Source of the DNA: JAFGIT01 sp016929465 [NCBI: Candidatus Coatesbacteria bacterium]
GTDB lineage: Bacteria; B130-G9
NCBI GenBank assembly: GCA_016929465.1
Contig: JAFGIT010000058.1
Span: forward strand, 1 to 16,762
Reading direction: 5' to 3'
Length of the DNA: 16,762 bases
Below, one piece after another: positions 2,145 to 16,616 of the stretch. The notes beneath the pieces were generated by a model. That model was not told the origin of the DNA and did no database searches. It saw nothing but the letters and a program-made list of their open reading frames with translations. Both the position numbers and the translations under genes were made by a program. Every line of letters starts with the position of its first letter. Position 1 is the stretch's first letter.

Positions 2145-3941
2145 ATGGACAAGCAGCCTCAAGAAAAGAGTAAGAGCTCGAAGCTGGAGAAGCGAGCATC
2201 GCTTCGGGCGATCTTCTCCTATTTCTGGCTTTATAAACGCTATACATTATGGGGCATTCTTGTTCTTCTCATAGTCGATGCGGTGCAGCTCTTCATCCCT
2301 CTTATCGTGAGGAGTCTGATCGACCGGATGACCTCGGGAACCGTCACCCTAGGCGACATCCCACTCTATGCAGCCCTGGTATTCGGAATAGGCCTGATAA
2401 TGGCCGCATGCAGGTTCCTGTGGTTTATCCTCCTGTTGGTGACGTCCGAGCGAATCTCGGAGCGAATTCGGGGCCGCTTCTTCAGCCACCTCCTCACGCT
2501 CTCGCAGCGATTTTTCCAGCACAGCAAGACCGGCGATCTGATGGCGAGGGTCTCGAACGATACCGAAAATGTCAGACTGGCGTGCGGGATGGGGATTATC
2601 ACGATGGTGGATGGCCTCTTATTCGCTGCGGCCGCAATCGGGATGATGGTCTTCATCAACCTGGAGTTGACCCTGTATGCGCTAATCCCGCTGCCTATCC
2701 TGACGGTCGTGGTAATCAAATTCGGACGAATGGTCCACTCCCGATTCGAGGCCGTCCAGGCTCGTATATCGGAGATAACCGAGAAAGTGAGGGATTCCTT
2801 TTCGGGGATAAGGGTCGTAAAGGCTTTCTGCCAGGAAACCGGCGAGCTCGAACACGTGAAGAAGGTCAGCTGGGAATACGTCAAAGACAACATGCATTTA
2901 ATCAAAGTGTGGGGGGCTTTCATCCCGCTTATAGGCCTTTTAGCGGGGTCATCGATGGCCATAGTCTTCCTCAAGGGAGGGTCGGACGTAATACTGGGTC
3001 GAATGAGCGTCGGCGACCTCACCGCGGTTACAAGCTATCTGGAGACCCTCACCTGGCCAATGATAGCTCTCGGATGGCTTATAAATCTGCTCGAAAGAGG
3101 CGCCGCCTCGATGTCACGCATCAACCGTGTGATGAACGAGGAGCCCGAGATAGTCGATGCTCCCGACGCGATGGAGCTGAAGTCGTCCTCTGCGAAGATA
3201 GAATTCCGGCATCTGACCTTCTCGTATGAAGATGGGCTTGCGCCATCGCTGTCAGATATCAGCTTCGAAGTCGCCCCCGGAAGGACACTTGCGATCGTTG
3301 GCCGGACCGGCTCCGGAAAGAGCACAATCGCCCGCCTGCTTCTGCGCGAATTCGATCCCCCTCCTGGCACTTTGTTCATCGATGGCAAGGATGTGCGAGA
3401 GGTGAAGAAGCAAGACCTCAGGAACCTCTTCGGATTCGTCCCGCAGGATTCATTCCTTTTTTCGGAGAGCATTGCCGAGAACATCGCCTTTGGACAGGAG
3501 AACATGGAGAGGTCAGCGATCGAGGAATTTGCCCGTAAGTCGGCGATCAACAAGGACATCGAGGACTTCCCCGATGGGTACGATACGATAGTCGGTGAAA
3601 GGGGCGTGATGCTCTCGGGGGGACAAAAGCAGCGAGTTGCGATTGCTCGTGCGCTCGTCAAGAACCCGCCTATTCTGCTCCTCGACGATTGTCTTTCCGC
3701 TGTCGATACTGAAACGGAGAGCCAGATACTGGGCAATCTCAGTGAGTCAATTCGTGGGATTACGACGATAATCGTCTCCCACCGGCTTTCGGCGGTCCAG
3801 CTTGCCGATGAGATAATCGTGCTGGACGAGGGCAGAGTGATGCAGCGGGGAACACATTCTGAGCTCCTCAGAGAGGGTGGCATCTACGCCGCGCTCTTCG
3901 CAAAGCAGCAGATCGAGGAGAGGCTGGACAGGAATGCTTGA
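2145..3941 (+). CDS. ABC exporter half-transporter, subunit with degenerate catalytic site (BmrC/TM287-type)
   Basis: A 598-residue type IV ABC half-transporter. The N-terminal membrane domain (about residues 25-330, six predicted helices) is fused to a C-terminal nucleotide-binding domain (about 345-585). Walker A is GRTGSGKST at 386-394, the Q-loop is FVPQDS, the signature LSGGQ at 490-494 is canonical, Walker B ILLLD ends at D514, and the switch His is H546. The residue after Walker B is Asp515 instead of the catalytic Glu, the hallmark of the non-hydrolysing partner in heterodimeric exporters such as BmrC, LmrC and TM287. It pairs with the downstream subunit, which has the reciprocal defects. 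The substrate is unknown; drugs, lipids or peptides are possible for this family. The ATG at 2145 follows a weak A/G-rich ribosome binding site. Confidence 0.93.
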   Translation: MDKQPQEKSKSSKLEKRASLRAIFSYFWLYKRYTLWGILVLLIVDAVQLFIPLIVRSLIDRMTSGTVTLGDIPLYAALVFGIGLIMAACRFLWFILLLVTSERISERIRGRFFSHLLTLSQRFFQHSKTGDLMARVSNDTENVRLACGMGIITMVDGLLFAAAAIGMMVFINLELTLYALIPLPILTVVVIKFGRMVHSRFEAVQARISEITEKVRDSFSGIRVVKAFCQETGELEHVKKVSWEYVKDNMHLIKVWGAFIPLIGLLAGSSMAIVFLKGGSDVILGRMSVGDLTAVTSYLETLTWPMIALGWLINLLERGAASMSRINRVMNEEPEIVDAPDAMELKSSSAKIEFRHLTFSYEDGLAPSLSDISFEVAPGRTLAIVGRTGSGKSTIARLLLREFDPPPGTLFIDGKDVREVKKQDLRNLFGFVPQDSFLFSESIAENIAFGQENMERSAIEEFARKSAINKDIEDFPDGYDTIVGERGVMLSGGQKQRVAIARALVKNPPILLLDDCLSAVDTETESQILGNLSESIRGITTIIVSHRLSAVQLADEIIVLDEGRVMQRGTHSELLREGGIYAALFAKQQIEERLDRNA

Positions 3942-4074
3942 ACCAGTGGCCCCCGCGCAAGACATCATCGCCCAGGGAATGCAGCTCGATGAGATGACAC
4001 AAGGCCGATCCTATCCGGCGATGATATTCACAGGGCTTTCACAATCTGAGAATTATCTACAGGACGAAGTGTGA
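3934..4074 (+). CDS. Possible 46-residue protein encoded between the two ABC subunits
   Basis: The 129-bp gap between the exporter genes is occupied by one open frame overlapping both neighbours. Its ATG (3934) lies in ATGCTTGA, which contains the upstream stop (8-bp overlap), and its TGA stop (4072-4074) overlaps the GTG start of the second subunit as GTGA. GAGGAGAGG at 3915-3923 and AGGA at 3930-3933 could serve as ribosome binding sites. The product is acidic, has no membrane segment and matches no family I recognise. Third-position G+C looks like the neighbouring genes. A frame of this length stays open by chance perhaps one time in eight, so the double overlap is the main support. It might instead be a translated coupling segment without a functional product. 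Confidence 0.4.
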   Translation: MLEPVAPAQDIIAQGMQLDEMTQGRSYPAMIFTGLSQSENYLQDEV

Positions 4075-6191
4075 ACGACGACTATTTCCCAGAAGACGCC
4101 CTGGACCGGCCGTACGACTGGCGGCTGATGAAGCGATTGCTCGCCTTCTCCAAGCCATATTGGCCGATCATTACGCTGTGCGCAGTACTCGTCATAATAA
4201 GCGCGGGATTCGACGTGTCCCTTCCCTATCTCACCAGGATTGCAATCGACCGTTATGTCGCAGTTGCAAGCAAAATGGTAACACTCGAGAACGAGTCTCT
4301 TCGCGAGCACTTCCAGACACAATACGGCGACCTGATTACTCCGGTCTCCAAGACTGAGTTCTTGATAGACGCCACCGAGACCCAGAAGCTCTTTTCAGAG
4401 GATCTGAAGCTCCTGAGAGACGACGGCCTCATCAGCGACGAGAGGATCTATGTTGTTCTGAGCCAGAACTACTCCGCGGAAGACTGGGACGCGGCGGCCG
4501 AAGTATGCCGCAAGAACAGCTTCACTGAGTTCGATGGTGGTTTCTACATAGCTGCAGAAGACCTGACCAAGATGCCACTTGCGGATTTGCTGACGCTGCG
4601 CAAAAGGGACCTGATAGGCCTCAAGACGTTGGCGATGATCTACCTCGCCATATTAGTTCTGAACTTCTTAATCTCCTATGGGCACGTATATCTCATGCAG
4701 TGGGCCAGCCAGAGGACTCTCTATGATCTGCGAGTATCCCTCTTCGATCACATGCAGAGATTGCCACTGTCCTTCTTCGACAAGTCACCGGTGGGAAGAC
4801 TGGTGACCAGGACTACCAATGACTTCTCCAATTTGCAGGAGATGTTCGGCGCGATCATCATCACAATAATAAAGGACGTTCTGATGGTTCTCTCGATCGC
4901 GGGGATCATGCTCTATATGAGCGTGAAATTCGCGCTTATCTCCTTCGTGGTCCTGCCGTTCGTGGTATATGTGTCCATCATCTTCCGCAGGAAGGCGCGT
5001 GGCGCATTCCGCAAGATACGCGTCAAGATTGCGAAAATGAACGCCTTGTTCGCCGAGTTCATATCCGGCATGGGCGTGATAAGAGCCTTTTGTCAGGAGG
5101 GGCGAATCAACAAGAAATTCCAGGACATTAACCACGAGGTCTTCGCCTGGCGACAGAGGCAGATAACGATCCTGGCCATTTTTCGCCCCACCGTCTGGAT
5201 CCTGAACAGCCTGGGAACGGGAATTATCATCTGGTATGGTGGCGGTAAAGTTATCCAGAATGAGGTCACGCTGGGGATATTCGTCGCATTCATCGCATAT
5301 ATGCGGATGTTCTTCATGCCGATCCACGACCTGACCGAGAAATTCAATACTATACAGGCCGCAATGGCTTCCTCCGAGCGTATATTCCAGCTGATCGACA
5401 GGGAACCCGAGCCTGTTGTCCAGGATCTCCCCGAAAAGGGAACCCCGGAAGATGCGAGAGTCGAATTTCGAGACGTGTGGTTCGCCTACAAAGGGGACAA
5501 TTGGGTACTGAAAGACGTATCCTTTGCGGTAAAGCCCGGGGAGACGGTCGCTATCGTGGGAGCAACCGGCGCCGGCAAGACGACCATGACCAGCCTTCTC
5601 TCGCGCCTGTATCCGATTCAGAAAGGCAAGATACTCATTGATGACACCGACATTGCTCGTCTATCACTCAGTAATCTCAGGAAGATGATCGGCGTGGTTC
5701 AGCAGGATGTGTTCCTGTTCTCGACCACGATCGGCCACAATGTCACCCTCAATGATGAGTCGATAGATGAGGCGGCGGTGAAGGACGCCATCAAGATCGC
5801 GAGGGCGGAGAAGCTCGTCTCCCGGCTTCCGAAGGGACTCGATGAGCCTGTCGTCGAACGCGGTGCAACGCTCTCTTCCGGCGAGAAGCAGTTGATCGCC
5901 TTCGCGAGGGTGCTCGCTTACAATCCCAAGATACTCGTCTTGGACGAGGCCACTTCGAACATCGATCCGGAGACCGAGTCGCTGATTCAGGAGGCACTCA
6001 TCAATCTCACCAGGGGCCGAACCTGTCTGATAGTCGCGCACCGGTTGAGCACAATCGAGCATGCAGACCGGATACTCGTCCTGCACAAGGGCCGCTTGCG
6101 CGAGGTTGGCACGCATTACGAGCTGCTGGAGAAGCGCGGGATATACTACGATCTCTATCGACTGCAGTATGCGGAGCGGAATCGCGCGTGA
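4071..6191 (+). CDS. ABC exporter half-transporter, catalytic subunit with large TM1-TM2 extracytoplasmic insert (BmrD/TM288-type)
   Basis: A 706-residue ABC half-transporter, longer than the usual roughly 580-600. The excess is a hydrophilic, acidic insert at about residues 62-180 between TM1 (about 30-53) and TM2 (about 183-205), which topology places in the periplasm. The same place carries the extracellular domain of BmrD (YheH) in BmrCD. The nucleotide-binding domain has Walker A GATGAGKTT (497-505), Q-loop VVQQD, signature LSSGE (601-605, non-canonical), Walker B LVLDE with catalytic Glu626, and switch His657. The competent ATP site therefore uses this Walker A/B with the partner's normal signature; the other site is degenerate. 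The start is a GTG with AGGA six bases upstream; an in-frame stop at 4047 rules out a long extension. It is likely co-translated with the upstream genes. Confidence 0.93.
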   Translation: MNDDYFPEDALDRPYDWRLMKRLLAFSKPYWPIITLCAVLVIISAGFDVSLPYLTRIAIDRYVAVASKMVTLENESLREHFQTQYGDLITPVSKTEFLIDATETQKLFSEDLKLLRDDGLISDERIYVVLSQNYSAEDWDAAAEVCRKNSFTEFDGGFYIAAEDLTKMPLADLLTLRKRDLIGLKTLAMIYLAILVLNFLISYGHVYLMQWASQRTLYDLRVSLFDHMQRLPLSFFDKSPVGRLVTRTTNDFSNLQEMFGAIIITIIKDVLMVLSIAGIMLYMSVKFALISFVVLPFVVYVSIIFRRKARGAFRKIRVKIAKMNALFAEFISGMGVIRAFCQEGRINKKFQDINHEVFAWRQRQITILAIFRPTVWILNSLGTGIIIWYGGGKVIQNEVTLGIFVAFIAYMRMFFMPIHDLTEKFNTIQAAMASSERIFQLIDREPEPVVQDLPEKGTPEDARVEFRDVWFAYKGDNWVLKDVSFAVKPGETVAIVGATGAGKTTMTSLLSRLYPIQKGKILIDDTDIARLSLSNLRKMIGVVQQDVFLFSTTIGHNVTLNDESIDEAAVKDAIKIARAEKLVSRLPKGLDEPVVERGATLSSGEKQLIAFARVLAYNPKILVLDEATSNIDPETESLIQEALINLTRGRTCLIVAHRLSTIEHADRILVLHKGRLREVGTHYELLEKRGIYYDLYRLQYAERNRA

Positions 6192-6252: not shown

Positions 6253-6849
6253 CTATTCACTCTCCGGATAGTATTTATCGAGACATTCCGGGCAAAGGCC
6301 ATGGCTGAACATGGCCTCGGAGTGCTCCGTAATGTAGCTCTCCACGCTGTGCCAGTAGTCTTTGTCATCCCTTATTCTCTTGCAATGCATGCAAATGGGA
6401 ATTAGTCCACTCAGCTGCTTGACGTCCGCGAGCGCCTTTTCGAGGCTCGCTATCTTCGAGGCGAGTGCCCTTTCGAGCTCGACAACTCGCTCTCCTACCT
6501 TGATGCGGCTTCTCAATTCGGCATGGTCGAAGGGCTTCTTGACGTAATCATCCGCACCTGCCTCGAGACCATTCACAATATCTTCCCGCAGCGATTTGGC
6601 AGTCAGGAGGATCACATAGATATATCCGGAGCCGGCAGACTCCATTTGCCGAATCCTGCGGCAGAGTTCGACACCATCCGTACCAGGCATCATCCAGTCG
6701 AGAATGGCGAAGTCCAGTCGCTCCCTTTGGATAGACTCCCAGGCATTATTTCCATTGGTCGTGACTATCACCTCATGGCCCCATTTGGCAAGAGTACGCT
6801 CGAGCACTATTCGAGAGGTTACATCATCCTCGGCTATCAGGATTCGCAT
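6253..6849 (-). CDS. Response regulator: receiver domain with C-terminal four-cysteine module
   Basis: A 198-residue protein with an N-terminal receiver domain (residues 1-120). The acidic pocket is D8/D9, the phospho-acceptor is D51 (AILDWMMPG), and T83 and K105 (KKPF) complete the active site. A short coiled coil (about 120-146) leads into a C-terminal segment with C153xxC156, an IRDDKDYW block (159-166), FSHG (181-184) and C186PxC189. The four cysteines could bind a metal such as zinc. I recall this GLIPICxxCKxIRDDxxYW...SHGxCPxC pattern as a recurrent tail on receivers and PAS sensor proteins in many environmental bacteria, without an assigned function. No DNA-binding or enzymatic output domain is present. 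It is the last gene of the signalling operon and overlaps the preceding receiver gene by 13 bp. Confidence 0.9.
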   Translation of the reverse strand: MRILIAEDDVTSRIVLERTLAKWGHEVIVTTNGNNAWESIQRERLDFAILDWMMPGTDGVELCRRIRQMESAGSGYIYVILLTAKSLREDIVNGLEAGADDYVKKPFDHAELRSRIKVGERVVELERALASKIASLEKALADVKQLSGLIPICMHCKRIRDDKDYWHSVESYITEHSEAMFSHGLCPECLDKYYPESE

Positions 6850-7253
6850 TGTGGATTTACCTTCACCAAATCAAGCGCTTGAAGCTTCGAAAGCAGCCTT
6901 GCCTTATCGATCGGCTTTACAAGATAGGCCTGGCAATTGCCCCTCGCCGCGGCCTCTATTTGCTCGCGATCGCCAACCGCGGTAACGATGATGATCTTGA
7001 CTCGCTTGTTTTCGTCGAGGTTTGCCTCAGCCTCCAGTCTGCGCAGTTCTCTGAGCGATTCTTGGCCGCCAAGTCCAGGCATCAAAATATCGAGGCAGAT
7101 CAAATCATAGGGATGATCGCTCTTGAGGGCGCATTTGTACGCCTCAATCGCCTCCCATCCATTTACGGCAACGTCGCACTCGCTGTATTCAGCCAAAAGA
7201 CGACGCAGCAATAGCCTGCTCGTGAAGTTGTCTTCGACAATCAGTGTTCTCAT
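6837..7253 (-). CDS. Single-domain response regulator (CheY-like receiver)
   Basis: A 138-residue stand-alone receiver with all five conserved active-site positions: E7/D8 acidic pair, phospho-acceptor D55 (LICLDILMPG), T91 (IIVTA) and K113 (YLVKP). No output domain follows, so it should act by protein-protein contact or as a shuttle or phosphate sink in the relay. The natural donor is the HPt domain or REC domains of the kinase encoded immediately upstream, whose stop overlaps this start as ATGA. The 3' end overlaps the next receiver gene by 13 bp, so the two receivers are probably made in coupled amounts. Start choice is fixed by the ATGA overlap and by the receiver beginning at residue 2. 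Confidence 0.92.
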   Translation of the reverse strand: MRTLIVEDNFTSRLLLRRLLAEYSECDVAVNGWEAIEAYKCALKSDHPYDLICLDILMPGLGGQESLRELRRLEAEANLDENKRVKIIIVTAVGDREQIEAAARGNCQAYLVKPIDKARLLSKLQALDLVKVNPQCES

Positions 7254-10200
7254 AGCTCACCCACCTGTTCTTCAAGCGTGAATCCTGCCACTGCGAGTTT
7301 CAAATTCTCAAACTCCCTTATCAGTGACTTCATTAGGCCTTGCGCCTGGCGCATGTCACCCTGCGAGCAGAGGTCCTCCATTTCACTCGCCAAATCCTTC
7401 AGTGAACCTGCGCTGACATTTCCGGATGCGCCTTTTATCGTGTGCGCCTGTCGCCTTGCCGTTTCTTCATCTGCTTCCGACAGGGCTCTTTCCAGGACCT
7501 CGATCTGAATTGGGATATCCATGAGGAAGGCATCCATGATCTCCTTTGCCAGCTCCTCGTCTCCTCCGAGCCGCTCAATAAAGCCAGGCCTATCGAATTC
7601 CGCAGGTGCTTTCCAGTTCTCCCTTAGATCCGTTTCTGATGGCCTCTTCTCGGCATCGATCCACCTGTTGATTGCCGCTGCCAGATCCCGAGGCTGAACC
7701 GGCTTGGAGACATAGTCGTCCATGCCGGCATCGATGCACTTCTGACGGTCTCCCTTCAGGACATGCGCCGTCATGGCGATGATAGGAACGCGCGAGCCAG
7801 TCCCATTCTCCTTCTCTCTTATGATGGCGGTTGCCTCGAGCCCATCCATTTCGGGCATCTGGACATCCATGAAGACTAGGTCATAAGGTATCGCCTTCAA
7901 TGAGGCAATCGCCTCGAGCCCGTTAGCCACAACATCGGCTCGAAAGCCCAGCTTCTCGAGTATCTTCAGCGCGACCTTTTGATTTATGATGTTGTCTTCT
8001 GCCAATAGAATGCGGGCTTTCTGTCTTCGGTTTTCTGATAGGGTGTGCCGTGCCACTATCTTCTCGCTGGAATTCTTGTTCCCGAACGCCTTGCCCAAGA
8101 CCGAATGAAGAAGCTCGCACAGCTGAGATTGCTTGACCGGCTTGGTTAAATAACCTGCGAATCCTACCTTCGCGAGTCTTGCAGCATCGCCGCGTTTGCC
8201 GAGAGAGGTCATCATCACCAAGATCGTATCCCTGAGGAGTGGGTCCTCCTTGATCATCCTTCCAAGTGACTCTCCATCGATCCTCGGCATTAGCATGTCC
8301 AGAACCGCTACCTGGAATGGATCATTCGCCTCGACAGCCTCTCTCAATTTATTGATCGCCGATTCAGCGCAATCCGCTAAATCGAGCCGACAACCGAATG
8401 ATTTTAGCATTCCCGCAAGCACTCGACGATTCGTCTTATTGTCATCGACCCCGAGAATACGCGCCCTATCGATATCGCCGGCATAGCGGCCCTGAATCGC
8501 CTCTTGTGGGTCTTGCTTGGTCAATCGAGCAGTGAACCAGAACAGCGACCCGCGGCCCTCCTCGCTCTCGACACCTATTTCGCCGCCCATTTTCTCTGCG
8601 AGCTGCTTCGATATCGATAGACCAAGTCCGGTCCCACCGAATTGGCGAGTAGTCGAGGCATCAACCTGGGTGAAGGCAGAAAATAGGCCGTCGAGCTTGC
8701 ACTCGGGAATACCAATTCCTGTATCCTTCACGGCGAAGCGGACCATCGCTTCTCCGTCAGCCTCCCAATCAAGAGAGACATGGAGTGCGACCTCCCCCTC
8801 TGAAGTGAATTTCAATGCGTTACCCAAAAGGTTTATGACAACCTGCCTTAACCTCCCAGGATCCCCCTGAAGCAGGGCGGGGACTGCCGGCTCAATGAGG
8901 CAGGTCAGCTCCAGATTCTTCTCATAAGCCTTGATGGCGTGAATGTCGATGACTTCCTCAAGACAAGTCCGGAGATCAAAATCGAGCGACTCCAGCTCCA
9001 ATCTCCCGGCCTCGATCTTGGAGAAGTCTAGAATATCATTGATTATATCCAGAAGCGCTTCTGCACTGCTCTTGACGGTCTCAGCGTAGTCTCTCTGCTC
9101 TGACGTCAATTCGGTGTCGATCAAAAGACCCGTCATCCCGATTACGCCATTCATTGGAGTGCGTATCTCATGGCTCATGTTCGCCAAGAACTGGCTCTTG
9201 GCTGCATTTGCAACTTCTGCCTTTATCGCCAGGTCGTTTGCTCGAGCAAGCGTCTGTTCGAGTCGGAGATTGATTATCTCTGTCTCCTCTTTGGCTTCTC
9301 TCAATGCTCCTTCGGCGAGCTTACGCTCGGTTATGTCTCGAAAGAAGCCCACGTTGCACAGCGTGCCGTCTATCACTGCCGTGCTAGCATTAACATCAAC
9401 ACAGAGAATCGAGCCGTCTTTTCTCAGGCATGGAATGTCGGAGGCGAGTCTCTTCTCTCCTCTACCCTGGGCCTCGAATTCCGAACTCACGTACTCCAAC
9501 GCATCTTGAGGATGGATGTCCATCGACCTCAAACCGACTAATTCACCTTCCGCATACCCGAGCATAGATAGGATCGCTGGATTCGCATACCTGATCAGCC
9601 CTTCCGCGTGATCTGCTATCAAGATACCGTCTGCGCTGGCGTCAAAAAGAGCTCTGTGCCTCACTTCTGAGTCACGCAGTGCCTTCTCGGCGGTCTTGCG
9701 CTCCGTGATGTCGCGTACGACCGTTTGAATCACCATCTTCCCGCCCAATTCCAGCCGGTCCAATAGAACCTCAGCCGGGAATTCGGTCCCATCGGTTCTT
9801 CTGTGTAACCACTCGAATCTCGCGTAGCCATCACGCATCGCGACAGAGATATATTGCTCCGCGAGGACCTGTGAATCTCGACCGCCCGGCTGTGAGGGAG
9901 GAGACAGGTCAATGGGCGTTTTCCCTCTGAATTCAAGGGAATCGGCAAAGCCGAACATCTCGAGCGCGGCGCTGTTGCAGTCGAAAAAGCCGCCTTCATC
10001 AAGCAACATGACAGCGTCGCTGGAAGAATCATAGAGGGTGCGGAACTTCAGCTCTGACTCGCGCAGCGATTCGATTGCATCCCGAAGCTCACTGGTCCGC
10101 TGATTTACTCTCTCCTCCAATTTGCCCTTCTCCTGCGCCAGCATTTCGAGAGTATCCCTTAGACGGGCCTTCATGGCGTTGAATGACCGTGCCAGTTGGC

Positions 10201-10831
10201 CGATCTCATCACCCGAATCAGCCTTGACATCCGGTGTATCCAGTTTGCCGGTCCCAGCTGATTCAAAGGCCTTCTGCAAGACACGTATCGGGCGGATGAC
10301 CATTCTGTTCAAGATTAGAGTCGTCGCGCCCGCAACGAGAACTAAGAGAACCATCAAGTAGCCGATCATCGATATGGTCATCGTCTCGAGGTCAGCTTTT
10401 TCTACACTTCTGCTGAACTCCATCCTGACTTCACCAATGTCCGTGGTCCCCCAGATCACTGGTGTTGCTGTGCTTCTGATACCGTCTGGAATCGCCGACA
10501 GATTCCTGTAATCAGGCGATGCGACATCCACAATGGGCGATCCTTTGAAATCCAGGAATTGGAGACGTATTACCCTGGGTAGCTGCATGAATTGCTCAGC
10601 CCGCCTTTTGATCTCATTGAAATTACGATCGTGCATGTGCTCTGCCACAGTACTAGATATTACCGAGGCGGTGTTCATGCACTCTCTATGGTATCTTCTC
10701 AGAATCTCGTCCTGCTGTTTCGCGAGCGTGTTAAGCCAGAAGTAGCCAATTATGGCAACCATCAGGACTGCTGCAAATGAGAATTTGGATCGAAGGCCCC
10801 CCATCTGGCTAAATCGCAGGATATGCTTCAT
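7250..10831 (-). CDS. Membrane-bound hybrid sensor histidine kinase (HAMP-PAS-PAS-HisKA-HATPase-REC-REC-HPt)
   Basis: A 1193-residue unorthodox hybrid kinase in the inner membrane. TM1 (about 17-36) and TM2 (about 152-174) flank a periplasmic region of about 115 residues with no family I can name. Then follow HAMP (about 175-228), a coiled coil, PAS1 (about 258-380) and PAS2 (about 385-506), each ending in a RDITERK motif, and a second coiled coil. In HisKA, H554 is the autophosphorylation site (NMSHEIRTP). The HATPase has N671 (N box), D703 (DTGIGIP) and GGTGLGL at 732-738. REC1 has D845, REC2 has D989 and the C-terminal HPt has H1130 (AHTIKGASG). All phospho-residues are intact, so a full His-Asp-His relay is possible. 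ATGA overlaps link it to the upstream heme sensor and downstream receiver. The BarA/EvgS class has a comparable relay layout. Confidence 0.95.
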   Translation of the reverse strand: MKHILRFSQMGGLRSKFSFAAVLMVAIIGYFWLNTLAKQQDEILRRYHRECMNTASVISSTVAEHMHDRNFNEIKRRAEQFMQLPRVIRLQFLDFKGSPIVDVASPDYRNLSAIPDGIRSTATPVIWGTTDIGEVRMEFSRSVEKADLETMTISMIGYLMVLLVLVAGATTLILNRMVIRPIRVLQKAFESAGTGKLDTPDVKADSGDEIGQLARSFNAMKARLRDTLEMLAQEKGKLEERVNQRTSELRDAIESLRESELKFRTLYDSSSDAVMLLDEGGFFDCNSAALEMFGFADSLEFRGKTPIDLSPPSQPGGRDSQVLAEQYISVAMRDGYARFEWLHRRTDGTEFPAEVLLDRLELGGKMVIQTVVRDITERKTAEKALRDSEVRHRALFDASADGILIADHAEGLIRYANPAILSMLGYAEGELVGLRSMDIHPQDALEYVSSEFEAQGRGEKRLASDIPCLRKDGSILCVDVNASTAVIDGTLCNVGFFRDITERKLAEGALREAKEETEIINLRLEQTLARANDLAIKAEVANAAKSQFLANMSHEIRTPMNGVIGMTGLLIDTELTSEQRDYAETVKSSAEALLDIINDILDFSKIEAGRLELESLDFDLRTCLEEVIDIHAIKAYEKNLELTCLIEPAVPALLQGDPGRLRQVVINLLGNALKFTSEGEVALHVSLDWEADGEAMVRFAVKDTGIGIPECKLDGLFSAFTQVDASTTRQFGGTGLGLSISKQLAEKMGGEIGVESEEGRGSLFWFTARLTKQDPQEAIQGRYAGDIDRARILGVDDNKTNRRVLAGMLKSFGCRLDLADCAESAINKLREAVEANDPFQVAVLDMLMPRIDGESLGRMIKEDPLLRDTILVMMTSLGKRGDAARLAKVGFAGYLTKPVKQSQLCELLHSVLGKAFGNKNSSEKIVARHTLSENRRQKARILLAEDNIINQKVALKILEKLGFRADVVANGLEAIASLKAIPYDLVFMDVQMPEMDGLEATAIIREKENGTGSRVPIIAMTAHVLKGDRQKCIDAGMDDYVSKPVQPRDLAAAINRWIDAEKRPSETDLRENWKAPAEFDRPGFIERLGGDEELAKEIMDAFLMDIPIQIEVLERALSEADEETARRQAHTIKGASGNVSAGSLKDLASEMEDLCSQGDMRQAQGLMKSLIREFENLKLAVAGFTLEEQVGEL

Positions 10832-11538
10832 TCGTGCGAAGCCTCATCCGATGGGGTCTCTCGGCTTCTCAAAGCGATAATAAATGGGGCCAGGACAAGG
10901 CAAAGCAATGCTCCCAGGAAGCCATAGGTCTCGATTCCGAAGTTGTTGGCAAGTTCAAGGGGAACCGAGACGATCAGCGCCCCGATCAATTCTCCTGGCT
11001 TTTTGCTGTAGCCATACTCAGTACCATATATCTCTTGGATGTTCTCAGGGGCTTCTTCTGGCTCTCCGTGGCATTTCAGACATTGATCCGTGATCCTAAC
11101 AGGCGTCGCGATATAGGACCGTCGCTCTCCGGTGTGCTTCATGACGCCGTCCCAGAGAGTGAGTTCGGGATCTCTGGCAAACTGCGCAATTATCTCTTTT
11201 TCCTGATCAGTAGCCAGGTTTCTGCGATTTCTCGGGTCTAGGCAAGCGTGCTTGAACGAGAAAGCCGGATAACTCTCTCGAATCCTGTTGAAGACATTTC
11301 TCGCCCCAAAGGATGAAGACATTGCCTCAATGACGAACCGGTCGTCCCCAAACTCCTTCCATAACGCGGGCTTGATGACGCTGCTCGTGATATACCGGTC
11401 CGCTTCCATCGCCGTCAGAATGAGACGTGCTCTCTGCTCGCATATCTCCTCGGCTGCAAATCGCTCCATCCAGAAGTGGATCAAGTACACTCCTATTAAG
11501 CTCGCTATGAGCACAATCCAGGCTGTTGATCTGGACAT
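10828..11538 (-). CDS. Membrane-anchored c-heme sensor protein, Tll0287-like (DUF3365)
   Basis: A 236-residue protein with a TM segment at about 5-23, a periplasmic domain of about 180 residues, and a second TM segment at about 204-223. The periplasmic part carries one c-type heme motif, C153-L-K-C156-H157, followed by GEPEEAP, and the pattern ADRYI...SYPAFSFKHACLDPRN...YIATPVRITDQ...GALIVSVP typical of the Tll0287-like/DUF3365 family. That family binds heme c and is commonly found as the sensory part of histidine kinases and chemoreceptors, with redox or gas sensing suspected. Here it is a separate protein whose stop overlaps the kinase start as ATGA, so it probably supplies the input to that kinase. 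The start follows a strong ribosome binding site, AAGGGGTGG. Cytochrome c maturation machinery would be needed elsewhere in the genome. Confidence 0.88.
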   Translation of the reverse strand: MSRSTAWIVLIASLIGVYLIHFWMERFAAEEICEQRARLILTAMEADRYITSSVIKPALWKEFGDDRFVIEAMSSSFGARNVFNRIRESYPAFSFKHACLDPRNRRNLATDQEKEIIAQFARDPELTLWDGVMKHTGERRSYIATPVRITDQCLKCHGEPEEAPENIQEIYGTEYGYSKKPGELIGALIVSVPLELANNFGIETYGFLGALLCLVLAPFIIALRSRETPSDEASHE

Positions 11539-12594: not shown

Positions 12595-15132
12595 CTATTC
12601 TGATTTATCGGTATCATTGTCATTGCCGGTCTCATGCTGTCCAGAGTCCCCGGCGCCCGAATCTCCCTGCTGTCCAGAATCATCCCCGCCATCAGATCCA
12701 GATGATTCTGACTGGGTCTCGGAGCCTGTACCATCGCCTGGCGGGCAATTTCCTTCCTCCCAGAAGAGCACTTCTCGCTTCCGAATCTCCTTGAACAGGT
12801 CCTCCATGCTCGCCTCGAAGTCGTCTATTGCTCCCTGCGCATCAGCCGGAGTATCGATGATGGTCGGAGTAATTAGAATGAGGAGTTCGATATTCGTCTC
12901 AATAATCGACGTGGACGAGAAGAGCTTCCCCAAATAGGGGATATCCATGAGTAGTGGAATGCCCTCCCTCGCGGTATTCGTATTCTTCTTGATCATGCCG
13001 CCGATGAGCAGAGTATTCTTGTTGTCCATGAAGACGGTGGTCTTGACTTCCCGGCGGTTCACGATCGGTGAATCAGAGCCACCAATCTTGTTCGTCTGCG
13101 CATCCGAAACGGTCTGGTTGATCTCCAGTTTTATCTTGCTTCGCTCATTCACATAGGGCTTGACGTCCAGGATAACGCCGGTGTCCTTGTATTGGATGGT
13201 GCGTCTCACGTCGAAGTCAGACGCGGCGCTGGTGCTGCTGGAGGTTTCGCTGGTTACGATAGGGACGTCCTTACCGACATATATCTTCGCCTCCTGGTTG
13301 TTGGATGCGATGATTCTTGGTGTGGAGAGAACATTCAGCTTGGATTGGCTCGCGTAGGCATTGAGGATACCCTTGAACCGCTCGGCATCTATGGCGCTCA
13401 GGACGAATCCACTTCCTGTAGGGATCCCGAGAGCCTGTGCAATGTCAGAGGTGACGTTGAAGTCCTCGCCGAGAACGTTCGCGCTGCCCTCACCCTTAAG
13501 AGCCCACTCGAGGCCGAATTGCGTGGTCTTGTCAAGGGTAAGCTCGGCGATGAGAACCTCGATCAAAACCTGCTTCGGTCGGATGTCGAGAGACTTGATG
13601 GTCCTTAGTATCTCTGGCCAGTTGATTGGGTCCGTTACTATTATCACCGAGTTGGTGTGCTCATCAGCAACTATGTTGACGTCGCCTACTATTGTGCCGG
13701 AGTCGAAAGATTTTCCCTCGCTCCCGCTCTCTCTCACCTTGCCGCCGAAGGGGGAGCTGGAGCTCGAAGTGGAGGTCGAAGTCGCCCTGGAGCCAGTGGA
13801 TTTGTTCTTCCCCTTGGAATAAAGACTTGTCAGAAGCGTCGCCATCGCCTTTGCCTCTGCGTTTTCGAGATAATAGACGTAGGTTTTTTCCGCGCCGTAA
13901 ACGTCAACGTCCAGCATCTCGATTACCGTCTTGATCGCCTCATGGGCAGCTTTTCGCCCCAGGACAATCAGCGAGTTCGAACGCTTGTCAGTTATTATTA
14001 CAGGTTTCTCTCCGAGCCCTCCTAGAGTGTCGCTACTGGTGCTGGGAGTAGTTGTCCTGCTTCTCGACGACCTCCTGCTACTGCTGCTCCTTCTCGTAGA
14101 GGATGACGTTGTAGTGGACTTTTTCGATGAGAATAGCTTGTCGAGAATAGATGCAACTTCTGAAGCGTCGGCATATCGGATCACATATACCTCGAGTTCC
14201 TCCGTCGCAGTCGGCACGTCAAGGAGCTGCACGAAGGTCATAACTCGCTTTATGTTCGATGCAAGGTCGGTGATTATGAGAAGCATCGTATCGTCATTGG
14301 CGAGCTCGAATGACACACTCGACAAGAACGGCTTGACGAGTTTCAATAGCTCGGAGGGAGCAATATGCTCAGTCGGTATGACCTGTGTCACTAACGAGTC
14401 CTCTAGCTCGAGGTTATCCCCCGAACGGCCTATATACGTGTCAATCGGGAGCTGTCTCGCGTTCGGCAGGGGCACGATCTTATAGAAATCACGGCCAGAG
14501 TCCACCATCGCCAGGCCATTCATCGTTAATATCGACTGGAGTATAAACCACAGATTATCAGGTCTCACCGGACGCCAGAATCGCGTCGTGATCTTCTTTG
14601 TCTTCACGGAGGGGTCCACGATGTAGTTGAAGGTCCCTCTTTCGGGCATGATCTTGATGAACATCTCGAGGACCTCCTCGATGGGGGCACCCTCGAGCGT
14701 CAAATGAGGCCAGGGCTCACGCTCCTCGAGGTCATCCGGAAGAGTGCCGGTCGGAGTCTTAGTCTGCGTCGTGAAAAGCAGCTTGTCCGGGGCGACCTCC
14801 TTTTCTTCAGTCTCGTCTTCCTCCGCATCGCCCTCTAAATCTGCATCCTGAGAGGAGATGGTTGAGGCCGAGGCTCCTGGCTCGGATGTCCGCCCAGTGC
14901 CGTCGCTCGAGGTCCCGGCGTCATCTGCCGGCTCGCTATCTTGTGCAGTGTCTCCCGCTCGTTCGCCGGAGTCCATTCCTGGCTTGGTCGCTGGACTACT
15001 CGAGAAATCTTCCTGCTTGAATACAACCGAACAGCCACTTAATAAGAACACTGATAGCGCAAGTATCAAAACGAGACATAAGCTTATCGTGCTGGGCCGC
15101 TGGTATAGTGGTGGAATTGGCTTATTCGACAT
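12595..15132 (-). CDS. gspD: Type II secretion system outer-membrane secretin (GspD), lipoprotein form
   Basis: An 845-residue secretin that would form the multimeric outer-membrane channel. A lipoprotein signal ends at LLSGC34. An acidic, disordered stretch (about 40-115) precedes N0 (about 138-225), N1 (about 248-306), N2 (about 312-408) and N3 (about 415-517). The secretin core (about 520-760) contains VPIV (623-626) and the diagnostic GIPLLMDIPYLGKLF block (724-738). N2 and N3 each carry a Ser/Thr-rich insertion (about 337-375 with many Arg, and about 439-478). The C-terminus (about 795-845) is an acidic Gly/Ser/Gln/Asp tail in place of a recognisable S-domain. The start is supported by AGGGGGT just upstream. 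A 58-codon frame links it to the GspC-like gene; a lipoprotein gene follows 16 bp downstream. Confidence 0.93.
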   Translation of the reverse strand: MSNKPIPPLYQRPSTISLCLVLILALSVFLLSGCSVVFKQEDFSSSPATKPGMDSGERAGDTAQDSEPADDAGTSSDGTGRTSEPGASASTISSQDADLEGDAEEDETEEKEVAPDKLLFTTQTKTPTGTLPDDLEEREPWPHLTLEGAPIEEVLEMFIKIMPERGTFNYIVDPSVKTKKITTRFWRPVRPDNLWFILQSILTMNGLAMVDSGRDFYKIVPLPNARQLPIDTYIGRSGDNLELEDSLVTQVIPTEHIAPSELLKLVKPFLSSVSFELANDDTMLLIITDLASNIKRVMTFVQLLDVPTATEELEVYVIRYADASEVASILDKLFSSKKSTTTSSSTRRSSSSRRSSRSRTTTPSTSSDTLGGLGEKPVIITDKRSNSLIVLGRKAAHEAIKTVIEMLDVDVYGAEKTYVYYLENAEAKAMATLLTSLYSKGKNKSTGSRATSTSTSSSSSPFGGKVRESGSEGKSFDSGTIVGDVNIVADEHTNSVIIVTDPINWPEILRTIKSLDIRPKQVLIEVLIAELTLDKTTQFGLEWALKGEGSANVLGEDFNVTSDIAQALGIPTGSGFVLSAIDAERFKGILNAYASQSKLNVLSTPRIIASNNQEAKIYVGKDVPIVTSETSSSTSAASDFDVRRTIQYKDTGVILDVKPYVNERSKIKLEINQTVSDAQTNKIGGSDSPIVNRREVKTTVFMDNKNTLLIGGMIKKNTNTAREGIPLLMDIPYLGKLFSSTSIIETNIELLILITPTIIDTPADAQGAIDDFEASMEDLFKEIRKREVLFWEEGNCPPGDGTGSETQSESSGSDGGDDSGQQGDSGAGDSGQHETGNDNDTDKSE

Positions 15133-15298
15133 ATTTACCCCCTGGGGTCAATTTGATTGCGTAAAACGACCGCGTAAAACCAGCGGCTATATTCGTTTGC
15201 ATCTGCCTTATTTCCAGATGTGATATCAAGTGCCCACCCATGCAATCCCTGGATCCCGCTGGATTGCCGAGCTTCGTTGACGTAATGTCCTTTATCAT
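15122..15298 (-). CDS. Possible 58-residue protein encoded between the GspC-like gene and gspD
   Basis: The 162-bp gap between the GspC-like and secretin genes is spanned by one open frame. Its ATG overlaps the GspC-like stop as ATGA (15298-15295), and its TAA (15124-15122) lies 11 bp inside gspD. The product is mildly basic with one Cys and no convincing signal or membrane helix; I recognise no family. A frame of this length survives by chance in roughly one gap in thirteen per frame, so the ATGA junction is the main support. An alternative is a frameshifted former C-terminus of the GspC-like protein, or simply an untranslated spacer. The frame contains a 7-bp inverted repeat (GCAATCC at 15242-15248, GGATTGC at 15261-15267) and two copies of GCGTAAAAC (15159-15167 and 15172-15180). 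Confidence 0.35.
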   Translation of the reverse strand: MIKDITSTKLGNPAGSRDCMGGHLISHLEIRQMQTNIAAGFTRSFYAIKLTPGGKYVE

Positions 15299-16047
15299 TT
15301 CTTTCCAGCCCTCTTCAGAGCATCGAGGAATCGCTGCGTTGCCTCATCCCTGTCCGGAGGTTTCGGCGGCGTCCGCCTGGAGGTTGAACGAGAGCGACTC
15401 GCTGGACTGCTCTTTTCCTTTTCCTGCTCCTCGTCAGCCTGATCCTGTTCTGGGACAGCCGTCTTCAACACTGCGACCTCGAAGCTCTCCTGTCCATTCG
15501 AGAAAACGACGAGCGTGTGCCTGATTTCGGCCACATACCAACCGTCTTTGACCTCTTCGCCAACGCGATACGACCTCGGATCGAGCAGTTCGTCGGGCGT
15601 AGGCGTTGGAGTAGGCGTGCTCCTACTGGTCCGACGTGATCGTCTAGACCTGCGTGCTGGCCTCTTTGGCTGCACCTTCTGCGCCGCTTTCTCCGCTACT
15701 ATTGCGTATTTGATCCTATCGGAGAGGATCATGATGCCATACACCTCGAGATTGGGCTTTTCTTTGCTGTCTGCATCATCCGTCGGTGTTTTCGTCGGCG
15801 ATGGCTCTGGCGGAATATATCTAGTCCTATCAGGCCTGAAGAGGTCTCGTTCAACCATCAGCTCATAGCCTGAGCCGGCTTCCATCTTCTCGACAGCATA
15901 TTCGTCTCGCGATATACGCCTGGGTGTGACTGTATCTGCCTTGGCCTCCTGCCCCAGAGGTCCCTGCCAAATCTCTGCAAGCCAAAGCGCCATCAGGACA
16001 GCGGCGACAGAGAGAGAAAGATTTATCAAAAATAGCTTTCGAAACAT
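15295..16047 (-). CDS. Type II secretion system GspC-like protein (HR domain, no PDZ)
   Basis: A 250-residue bitopic inner-membrane protein: cytoplasmic MFRK, TM about 6-26, then periplasm. The segment VERDLFRP (66-72), LEVYGIMILSDRIKYAIVAEKA (about 100-121) and YRVGEEVKDGWYVAEIRHTLVVFSNG (about 160-185) follows the GspC homology-region pattern, related to PilP, which links the inner-membrane platform to the N0 domain of the secretin. The homology region is interrupted at about 127-151 by an Arg/Ser-rich stretch and a Thr-Pro repeat. A charged Ser/Arg-rich tail (about 197-250) takes the place of the PDZ domain of classical GspC. It lies 11 bp after the GspM-like gene and upstream of gspD, as expected for a linker protein. 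PilP-type or PulC/GspN naming would also be defensible. Confidence 0.75.
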   Translation of the reverse strand: MFRKLFLINLSLSVAAVLMALWLAEIWQGPLGQEAKADTVTPRRISRDEYAVEKMEAGSGYELMVERDLFRPDRTRYIPPEPSPTKTPTDDADSKEKPNLEVYGIMILSDRIKYAIVAEKAAQKVQPKRPARRSRRSRRTSRSTPTPTPTPDELLDPRSYRVGEEVKDGWYVAEIRHTLVVFSNGQESFEVAVLKTAVPEQDQADEEQEKEKSSPASRSRSTSRRTPPKPPDRDEATQRFLDALKRAGKK

Positions 16048-16058
16048 CTGCTAAATAC

Positions 16059-16616
16059 CTAGGGCAATTCCTTTAGAACGAAACCAACTACTGTAATCTC
16101 GATAAAAATCTTCTGGGGATCGCGCTGGTTCTCGGGCCTCAACTCCAGCTTTTTGACGTGTAGGATCATGCGATCATCCAACAGTCTGCTCAAGAAATCC
16201 TTCAATTCAGATAGAGAACCCGTTGCGCTAAGCTCGACTGGGACAGCCACGAAACCGCCGCGTTCCTCATTCTTCAGTATCTTCTTGCTGCGGGTACTGA
16301 GTCTCGACCTCTGAAGAAGCGAATCCAGCGTCTGCTGGAGCTTCGCCCCCGCCACATTTGTATTCGTCGATGGGATAAGCCTGGAATCGAGCCCCGAGCC
16401 AATGCTCTTCAACTCGTTCAGCTCATACTCAGCGGCGGGCCGCTCCGATATTATCTTGACACTCTTCTCATATTTGAATTGTAGGTCTTCGATCTTATCC
16501 GATAATTCCTGGCTATATGCGAAAATCGGTGCGATGGCGAATTTGAATAGAATGAATAGCCCAACAGCGACGCCGCCCACTATCAGTATTTTGCGGTCTC
16601 GTTCAGTCAGCTTCAT
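16059..16616 (-). CDS. Type II secretion system GspM/PilO-like inner-membrane protein
   Basis: A 185-residue bitopic protein: short charged cytoplasmic start (MKLTERDRK), one TM helix (about 10-31), a coiled-coil stretch (about 34-62), and a C-terminal periplasmic domain (about 85-180) with alternating strands and helices. The pattern GAKLQQTLDSLLQRS...VPVELSATGSLSELKDFLSRLL fits the GspM/PilO ferredoxin-like fold. GspM pairs with GspL in the inner-membrane assembly platform of the T2SS. Its ATG overlaps the upstream partial gene as ATGA, and it is followed after 11 bp by the GspC-like gene, an order seen in many T2SS operons (L-M-C/N-D). Sequence conservation in this family is low, so the call rests on architecture plus context. 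Confidence 0.75.
   Translation of the reverse strand: MKLTERDRKILIVGGVAVGLFILFKFAIAPIFAYSQELSDKIEDLQFKYEKSVKIISERPAAEYELNELKSIGSGLDSRLIPSTNTNVAGAKLQQTLDSLLQRSRLSTRSKKILKNEERGGFVAVPVELSATGSLSELKDFLSRLLDDRMILHVKKLELRPENQRDPQKIFIEITVVGFVLKELP

Follow-up and report, generated by a model that had tools for sequence, protein, structure and literature searches.

The window analysed here, the 16,762 nucleotides at positions 1 to 16,762 of contig JAFGIT010000058.1 (JAFGIT01 sp016929465, Candidatus Coatesbacteria bacterium; assembly GCA_016929465.1), encodes a stand-alone membrane heme protein whose gene is followed, with overlaps, by those of a hybrid histidine kinase and two receivers (RR1 and RR2). 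The heme protein belongs to the sCache_heme family and is not an H-NOX protein; although stand-alone in architecture, it is of sensor type in its heme pocket and ancestry. We judge the chances evenly balanced that it is a gas-sensor-type subunit now without an output of its own, working in trans through a partner, of which the likeliest is the kinase whose start codon overlaps the stop codon of the heme gene. The finding of wider reach is that RR2 ends in a Cys4 module (MOD) that is uncatalogued in Pfam and NCBIfam and that, in other genomes, is joined without intermediary to this heme domain.

Pocket and ancestry of the heme protein

The heme protein matches PF11845 (E 1.2e-32; 113.7 bits against a curated cut-off of 24.1) and no other Pfam family at E <= 0.01: there is no second domain, no H-NOX (HNOB) match, and no HAMP or other fused signalling domain. 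Its single CxxCH motif (C153-C156-H157), reported in the first-pass annotation and borne out by the sequence, lies in an insert that precedes the last strand of the Cache fold. The AlphaFold2 model (22 rows; predicted local distance difference test score, pLDDT, 91.5) begins with a long helix, continues into the Cache core and then has a further membrane helix; its sole Foldseek match at E <= 0.001 is Tll0287 (5b82; E 1.6e-8, TM-score 0.78 on the target). Heme loading is predicted to be c-type, and the host genome encodes a cytochrome c assembly protein (PF01578).

The available part of PMC12889525, a 2026 preprint that names the domain sCache_heme, splits heme-Cache proteins into fused nitric oxide (NO) sensors and stand-alone redox proteins; it describes a stand-alone member with a cysteine axial ligand that acts as a redox protein, and a HAMP-bearing member with two transmembrane (TM) segments and no axial cysteine that binds NO tightly. 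The stand-alone form that struck the first annotator is genuine in the window, but nearly half of the family is stand-alone according to the same part of the preprint.

The axial position was compared across 99 non-redundant open reading frames (ORFs) from among the matches listed; all listed matches whose open frame did not exceed ~444 aa were taken, and fused ones for the loci that the search itself supplied, the fused class being a partial sample. Three more ORF rows, from two genes, were left out for want of CxxCH in the region matched. The axial column holds cysteine in 23 of the 99 and S75 in the window protein, and since the axial (distal) cysteine is absent, the sixth heme ligand is probably exchangeable. 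All 23 Cys-type rows are heme-only by seven domain models, each with fewer than two predicted TM segments, and no kinase, whatever its strand, is encoded within three genes of them (for three of the 23, one flank is without a neighbouring gene). The maximum-likelihood tree built from all 99 places the Cys-type rows and one other in a separate group (support 99/96) and the window protein in a group of 24 (99/94), of which 17 are fused or long-tailed, 5 have HAMP only and 2 have no tail; the rows nearest to it by tree path are the HAMP-only L149, L146 and L147, its branch is long (1.17) and its sister placement is tentative (90/84). Every row that outscores the first Cys-type row in BLASTP with the heme protein has a HAMP domain or a kinase core. 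Versions fused to kinases, which the first-pass annotation proposed to look for, do exist, as do HAMP-bearing ones, and the window protein groups with them; the sensory role suggested there gains weight from the axial column and the tree, by which the lineage is sensory rather than electron-carrying. Two tandem heme-Cache domains per protein are encoded at L176 (5918-7054) and L181 (6078-7151).

The heme protein could instead be a periplasmic redox or electron carrier like Tll0287, merely co-transcribed with the kinase. The missing axial cysteine, the two TM helices and the placement outside the Cys-type group make this unlikely in our view, despite the stand-alone architecture, which the available part of PMC12889525 ties to redox roles. 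The long branch could also be that of a decaying remnant of a HAMP- or kinase-fused sensor, heading for loss and with no present role: HAMP and output are gone, the five tailless rows, one of which is contig-cut, are dispersed over the tree with 5 changes, and the protein was not found in the family (see below). Such decay fits poorly with an intact ORF and CxxCH, a confidently predicted fold that includes both membrane helices, and an overlap with the kinase start; moreover, the kinase has a TM1 of its own, so the two genes are not one gene split in two, and we rate a remnant as improbable.

The kinase as a candidate partner

The kinase consists of a TM segment, a periplasmic region of ~115 aa, a second TM segment and the Pfam arrangement HAMP-PAS-PAS-HisKA-HATPase_c-REC-REC-HPt. 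Hydrophobic segments, which begin at about residues 2-4 and 200-202 in the heme protein and at about 15 and 148 in the kinase, agree with the first description of a two-TM heme protein beside a kinase with a periplasmic region of its own; the hybrid kinase and two receivers named there are likewise confirmed by Pfam domains and by intact phosphorelay residues (kinase H554, D845, D989 and H1130; RR1 D55; RR2 D51). The kinase remains below the NCBIfam equivalog cut-offs for BarA (521.7 of 890) and TorS (TIGR02956; 490.4 of 676.5), and its periplasmic region has no Pfam match. Only ~15 residues follow the second TM helix of the heme protein, so any signal must exit via a partner. In the proposed mechanism, a periplasmic ligand or redox state would set the heme protein's Cache domain and its helices, which would signal to the kinase dimer through periplasmic and transmembrane contact; the kinase would load its REC-REC-HPt relay, from which RR1 and RR2 may receive phosphate, and RR2 would act via MOD. 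Solely by analogy with the member described in PMC12889525, the ligand would most likely be NO.

Kinases recur beside comparable heme proteins in unrelated genomes. The comparison class is defined by a pair of TM segments, the absence of a kinase core and no more than 130 residues beyond the heme match, and takes in HAMP-only, MOD-fused and tailless forms. It accounts for 20 of the 99 proteins, the contig-end-cut L151 being retained. In six of these (the window, L122, L124, L125, L155 and L156) a kinase is encoded on the same strand no more than three genes away, which with the window excluded gives 5 of 19 versus 0 of 23 Cys-type genes (Fisher p 0.014); further out in the same stretches, kinase genes number 3 of 109 in the two-TM class and 0 of 95 in the Cys class. 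An alignment survey for heme-MOD proteins in 345 genomes of one phylum, in which at most six candidates were scored per genome, detected near full-length fusions in at least seven genomes: G126 (L122), L213 (at a contig edge) and five others, one of which (L209) has a kinase 6 bp away. In the pooled set, excluding the window, 6 of 24 proteins have a same-strand kinase nearby (p 0.022 versus the Cys class; p 0.012 versus a chance rate of 8% derived from the 3 of 109; p 0.001 versus an assumed 5%). The 24 omit two contig-edge cases, L213 (its gene reaches the end of the contig) and L215 (truncated where the contig begins), together with L214 (a broken fused gene, its heme ORF ending inside a PAS domain that continues in the next ORF) and L123 (CxxCH missing from the region matched, with a kinase two genes off). 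The neighbouring kinases at L124 and L209 have no predicted TM segment, and the heme protein is therefore the membrane input beside the kinase there.

The exact quartet, which the first-pass annotation suggested seeking in other genomes, is absent beyond the window in the loci read, including 20 loci from a genome-contig scan. The nearest arrangements are heme-HAMP, small membrane protein and kinase at L155 and L156, and heme-MOD, PAS-MOD, kinase, REC and REC-MOD at L125. L155 (8692-11806) and L156 (4119-7319) are from Desulfobulbaceae; their small hydrophobic protein has no Pfam match and their kinase has its own sensor region. At L210 and L212, a heme-MOD gene adjoins or lies near a same-strand gene for a 1032-aa multi-TM protein, possibly an efflux pump, and the heme-MOD relative without CxxCH at L123 (4899-6191) is possibly heme-less.

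The 18 of 24 comparable proteins that have no kinase neighbour qualify the pairing and lend themselves to two other readings. They are compatible with a redox carrier, from which the window differs in that none of the Cys-type genes lies near a kinase; and they would fit a heme protein that senses together with another membrane receptor while the kinase reads its own periplasmic ligand, as its ~115-aa periplasmic region might allow. We see little prospect of such a different partner, given the 4-bp overlap with this very kinase and the recurrence of kinases as a neighbour class (6 of 24).

Further observations weigh, as do those 18, against trans sensing through the kinase. No similarity was detected between the periplasmic region of the kinase and the heme Cache domain; the three other intact tailless heme proteins (L057, L084 and L177), themselves among the 18, are not near a kinase (0 of 3); L155 and L156 are near relatives, which leaves fewer independent cases; and the comparison classes were defined after inspection of the data. 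PF00115, PF03063 and PF02335 have no match in the host genome (86% complete), so that NO or oxygen enzymes of those families give the guess at the ligand no backing. Conservation beside the kinase in relatives, on which the first-pass annotation staked its proposal, fails in the family: the three same-family genomes in the sample (the others share domain rank only) have no PF11845 match among the matches listed, and the kinase of one of them, G002, which is 66% identical to the window kinase over residues 498-1183, bears instead an N-terminal Phosphonate-bd sensor (E 8.1e-28). The RR2 counterpart of G002 (63% identical) is encoded on a different contig, and the three genes to either side of it include no kinase gene. 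Locus L132 of G056 shares with the window a hybrid kinase with REC-REC-HPt (43% identical over 815 columns) that adjoins a REC-MOD protein 51% identical to RR2, but this kinase has no predicted TM segment, and no heme gene is present in the stretch read. The conserved core, as far as these sequences indicate, is the kinase relay plus the REC-MOD receiver, with the input half swapped.

The Cys4 module of RR2

The end of RR2, an addition to what the first-pass annotation described, is a coiled coil followed by CxxC, Trp and SHGxCPxC (key residues C153, C156, W166, H183, C186 and C189). MOD matches no Pfam family above cut-off and no NCBIfam family; below the Pfam cut-offs it resembles Gin (E 0.003), DUF3039 (E 0.006) and Fin (E 0.034), and no PDB sequence scores below E 0.13. 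A literature text search with motif strings such as SHGICP found no paper, and the cysteine-rich archaeal domain in the available part of PMC5847659 is different from MOD. The AlphaFold2 model (9 rows; pLDDT 87.9) has a long helix and, after it, a compact Cys4 fold; it has no Foldseek match at E <= 0.001, and its best VIA row is Nmd3 (Z 3.2), a result that does not make the fold a new one.

A four-row model detects MOD in 83 of 386 genomes, including the window's genome and G002; PF11845 occurs in 90 and both occur in 31, which is above chance (p 0.001, with related genomes being non-independent). Among 47 non-redundant copies, 9 are behind REC, 14 behind PAS (one a truncated duplicate), 6 behind heme-type Cache (one without CxxCH) and 18 behind none of the domain models (8 of these 18 are viral-contig copies). 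Besides that of RR2, the window's genome has another copy, which sits behind GAF. MOD was also found behind membrane inputs, and further examples are at L120 (5279-5992), L125 and L132. The four cysteines, the tryptophan and the histidine are 95-100% conserved over the 47 copies, each of the 39 bacterial copies stops no more than 21 residues short of the C-terminus, and a same-strand kinase lies within two genes of seven of the nine REC-MOD genes (6 of 8 without the window). Because of its position and partners, MOD would be the output module of RR2.

Relatives of MOD occur at nine viral-contig loci (L160-L168, IMG/VR), eight of which were read as ORFs; they are small ORFs with CxxC, W and [ST]HGxCPxC, and the viral contigs contain no relative of the heme protein. 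Phage records have no MOD match and plasmids have one. PHROGs matches are weak; the best, obtained with one of the viral relatives, is to an HNH endonuclease family (E 4.6e-4).

More tentatively, and with doubt outweighing confidence, the locus may exemplify split periplasmic heme gas sensing, in which an output-less sCache_heme protein signals to a hybrid kinase in trans, ending in an undescribed and widespread module; one kind of heme input would reach MOD either directly (heme-MOD) or by phosphorelay (heme protein, kinase and REC-MOD). If trans sensing is true, the window protein runs against the published rule that equates stand-alone with redox. The window protein is stand-alone yet sensor-like in pocket and ancestry, and thus ligation and lineage, rather than fusion, may better predict sCache_heme function. 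MOD, which occurs in 83 of the 386 genomes and follows membrane, heme, REC, PAS and GAF inputs, would amount to a large signalling output that the Pfam and NCBIfam libraries lack.

Locus layout and known systems

Coordinates of the overlapping genes and their features in the window
Feature	Position	Strand	Basis	Description
Heme protein gene	10828..11538	minus	ORF + Pfam	236 aa, two-TM, Tll0287-like (sCache_heme)
CxxCH, residues 153-157	11068..11082	minus	sequence	predicted covalent heme c site
Hybrid histidine kinase gene	7250..10831	minus	ORF + Pfam	1193 aa
RR1, stand-alone receiver	6837..7253	minus	ORF + Pfam Response_reg	138 aa, D55
RR2, receiver + C-terminal coiled coil + Cys4 module	6253..6849	minus	ORF + Pfam Response_reg	198 aa, D51
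Cys4 module (MOD), RR2 residues 136-196	6262..6444	minus	module model, alignment, AlphaFold2	

The ORF coordinates uphold the overlaps first reported: 4 bp between the heme and kinase genes (10828-10831) and between the kinase and RR1 genes (7250-7253), both ATGA on the coding strand, and 13 bp between RR1 and RR2 (6837-6849). In the main proposal, judged above at even odds, the four genes would form one signalling unit. On the 5' side of the quartet are an ORF of 187 aa that matches no Pfam family and secretion-type genes; the latter (12595-16616, minus strand) are secretin and T2SSM_b-like genes of type II secretion, apparently unrelated to the quartet. From the other side, an ABC-transporter pair (2145-6191, plus strand) is convergent with it. 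Promoter and terminator patterns at the locus do not exceed those of shuffled sequences, and an Rfam search gave no match. The host genome is a 3.19-Mb draft, 86.32% complete.

The NO-binding sCache_heme protein of Pseudomonas azotoformans (PMC12889525, available part) shares with the window protein two TM helices, CxxCH and the absence of an axial cysteine, but has a HAMP domain, which the window protein lacks, and the window protein overlaps a kinase gene. Tll0287, the best PDB match, and the stand-alone sCache_heme protein of P. putida share its Pfam family and stand-alone form; they have Cys/His ligation according to the same source, whereas the window protein lacks the cysteine and has a second TM helix. 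A separate periplasmic sensor on a kinase is also found in the LuxP-LuxQ complex and in TorT, listed as a ligand of TorS in the available part of PMC8534201. Those sensors, unlike the window protein, are not heme Cache proteins. LuxP and TorT are not known to be membrane-anchored. H-NOX heme NO sensors bind and regulate histidine kinases, as described in the available part of PMC8738867. They share the arrangement proposed for the window, a separate heme sensor acting on a kinase in trans, and differ in fold and family. H-NOX proteins are generally cytoplasmic with non-covalent heme b, whereas the window protein is predicted to be periplasmic with heme c.

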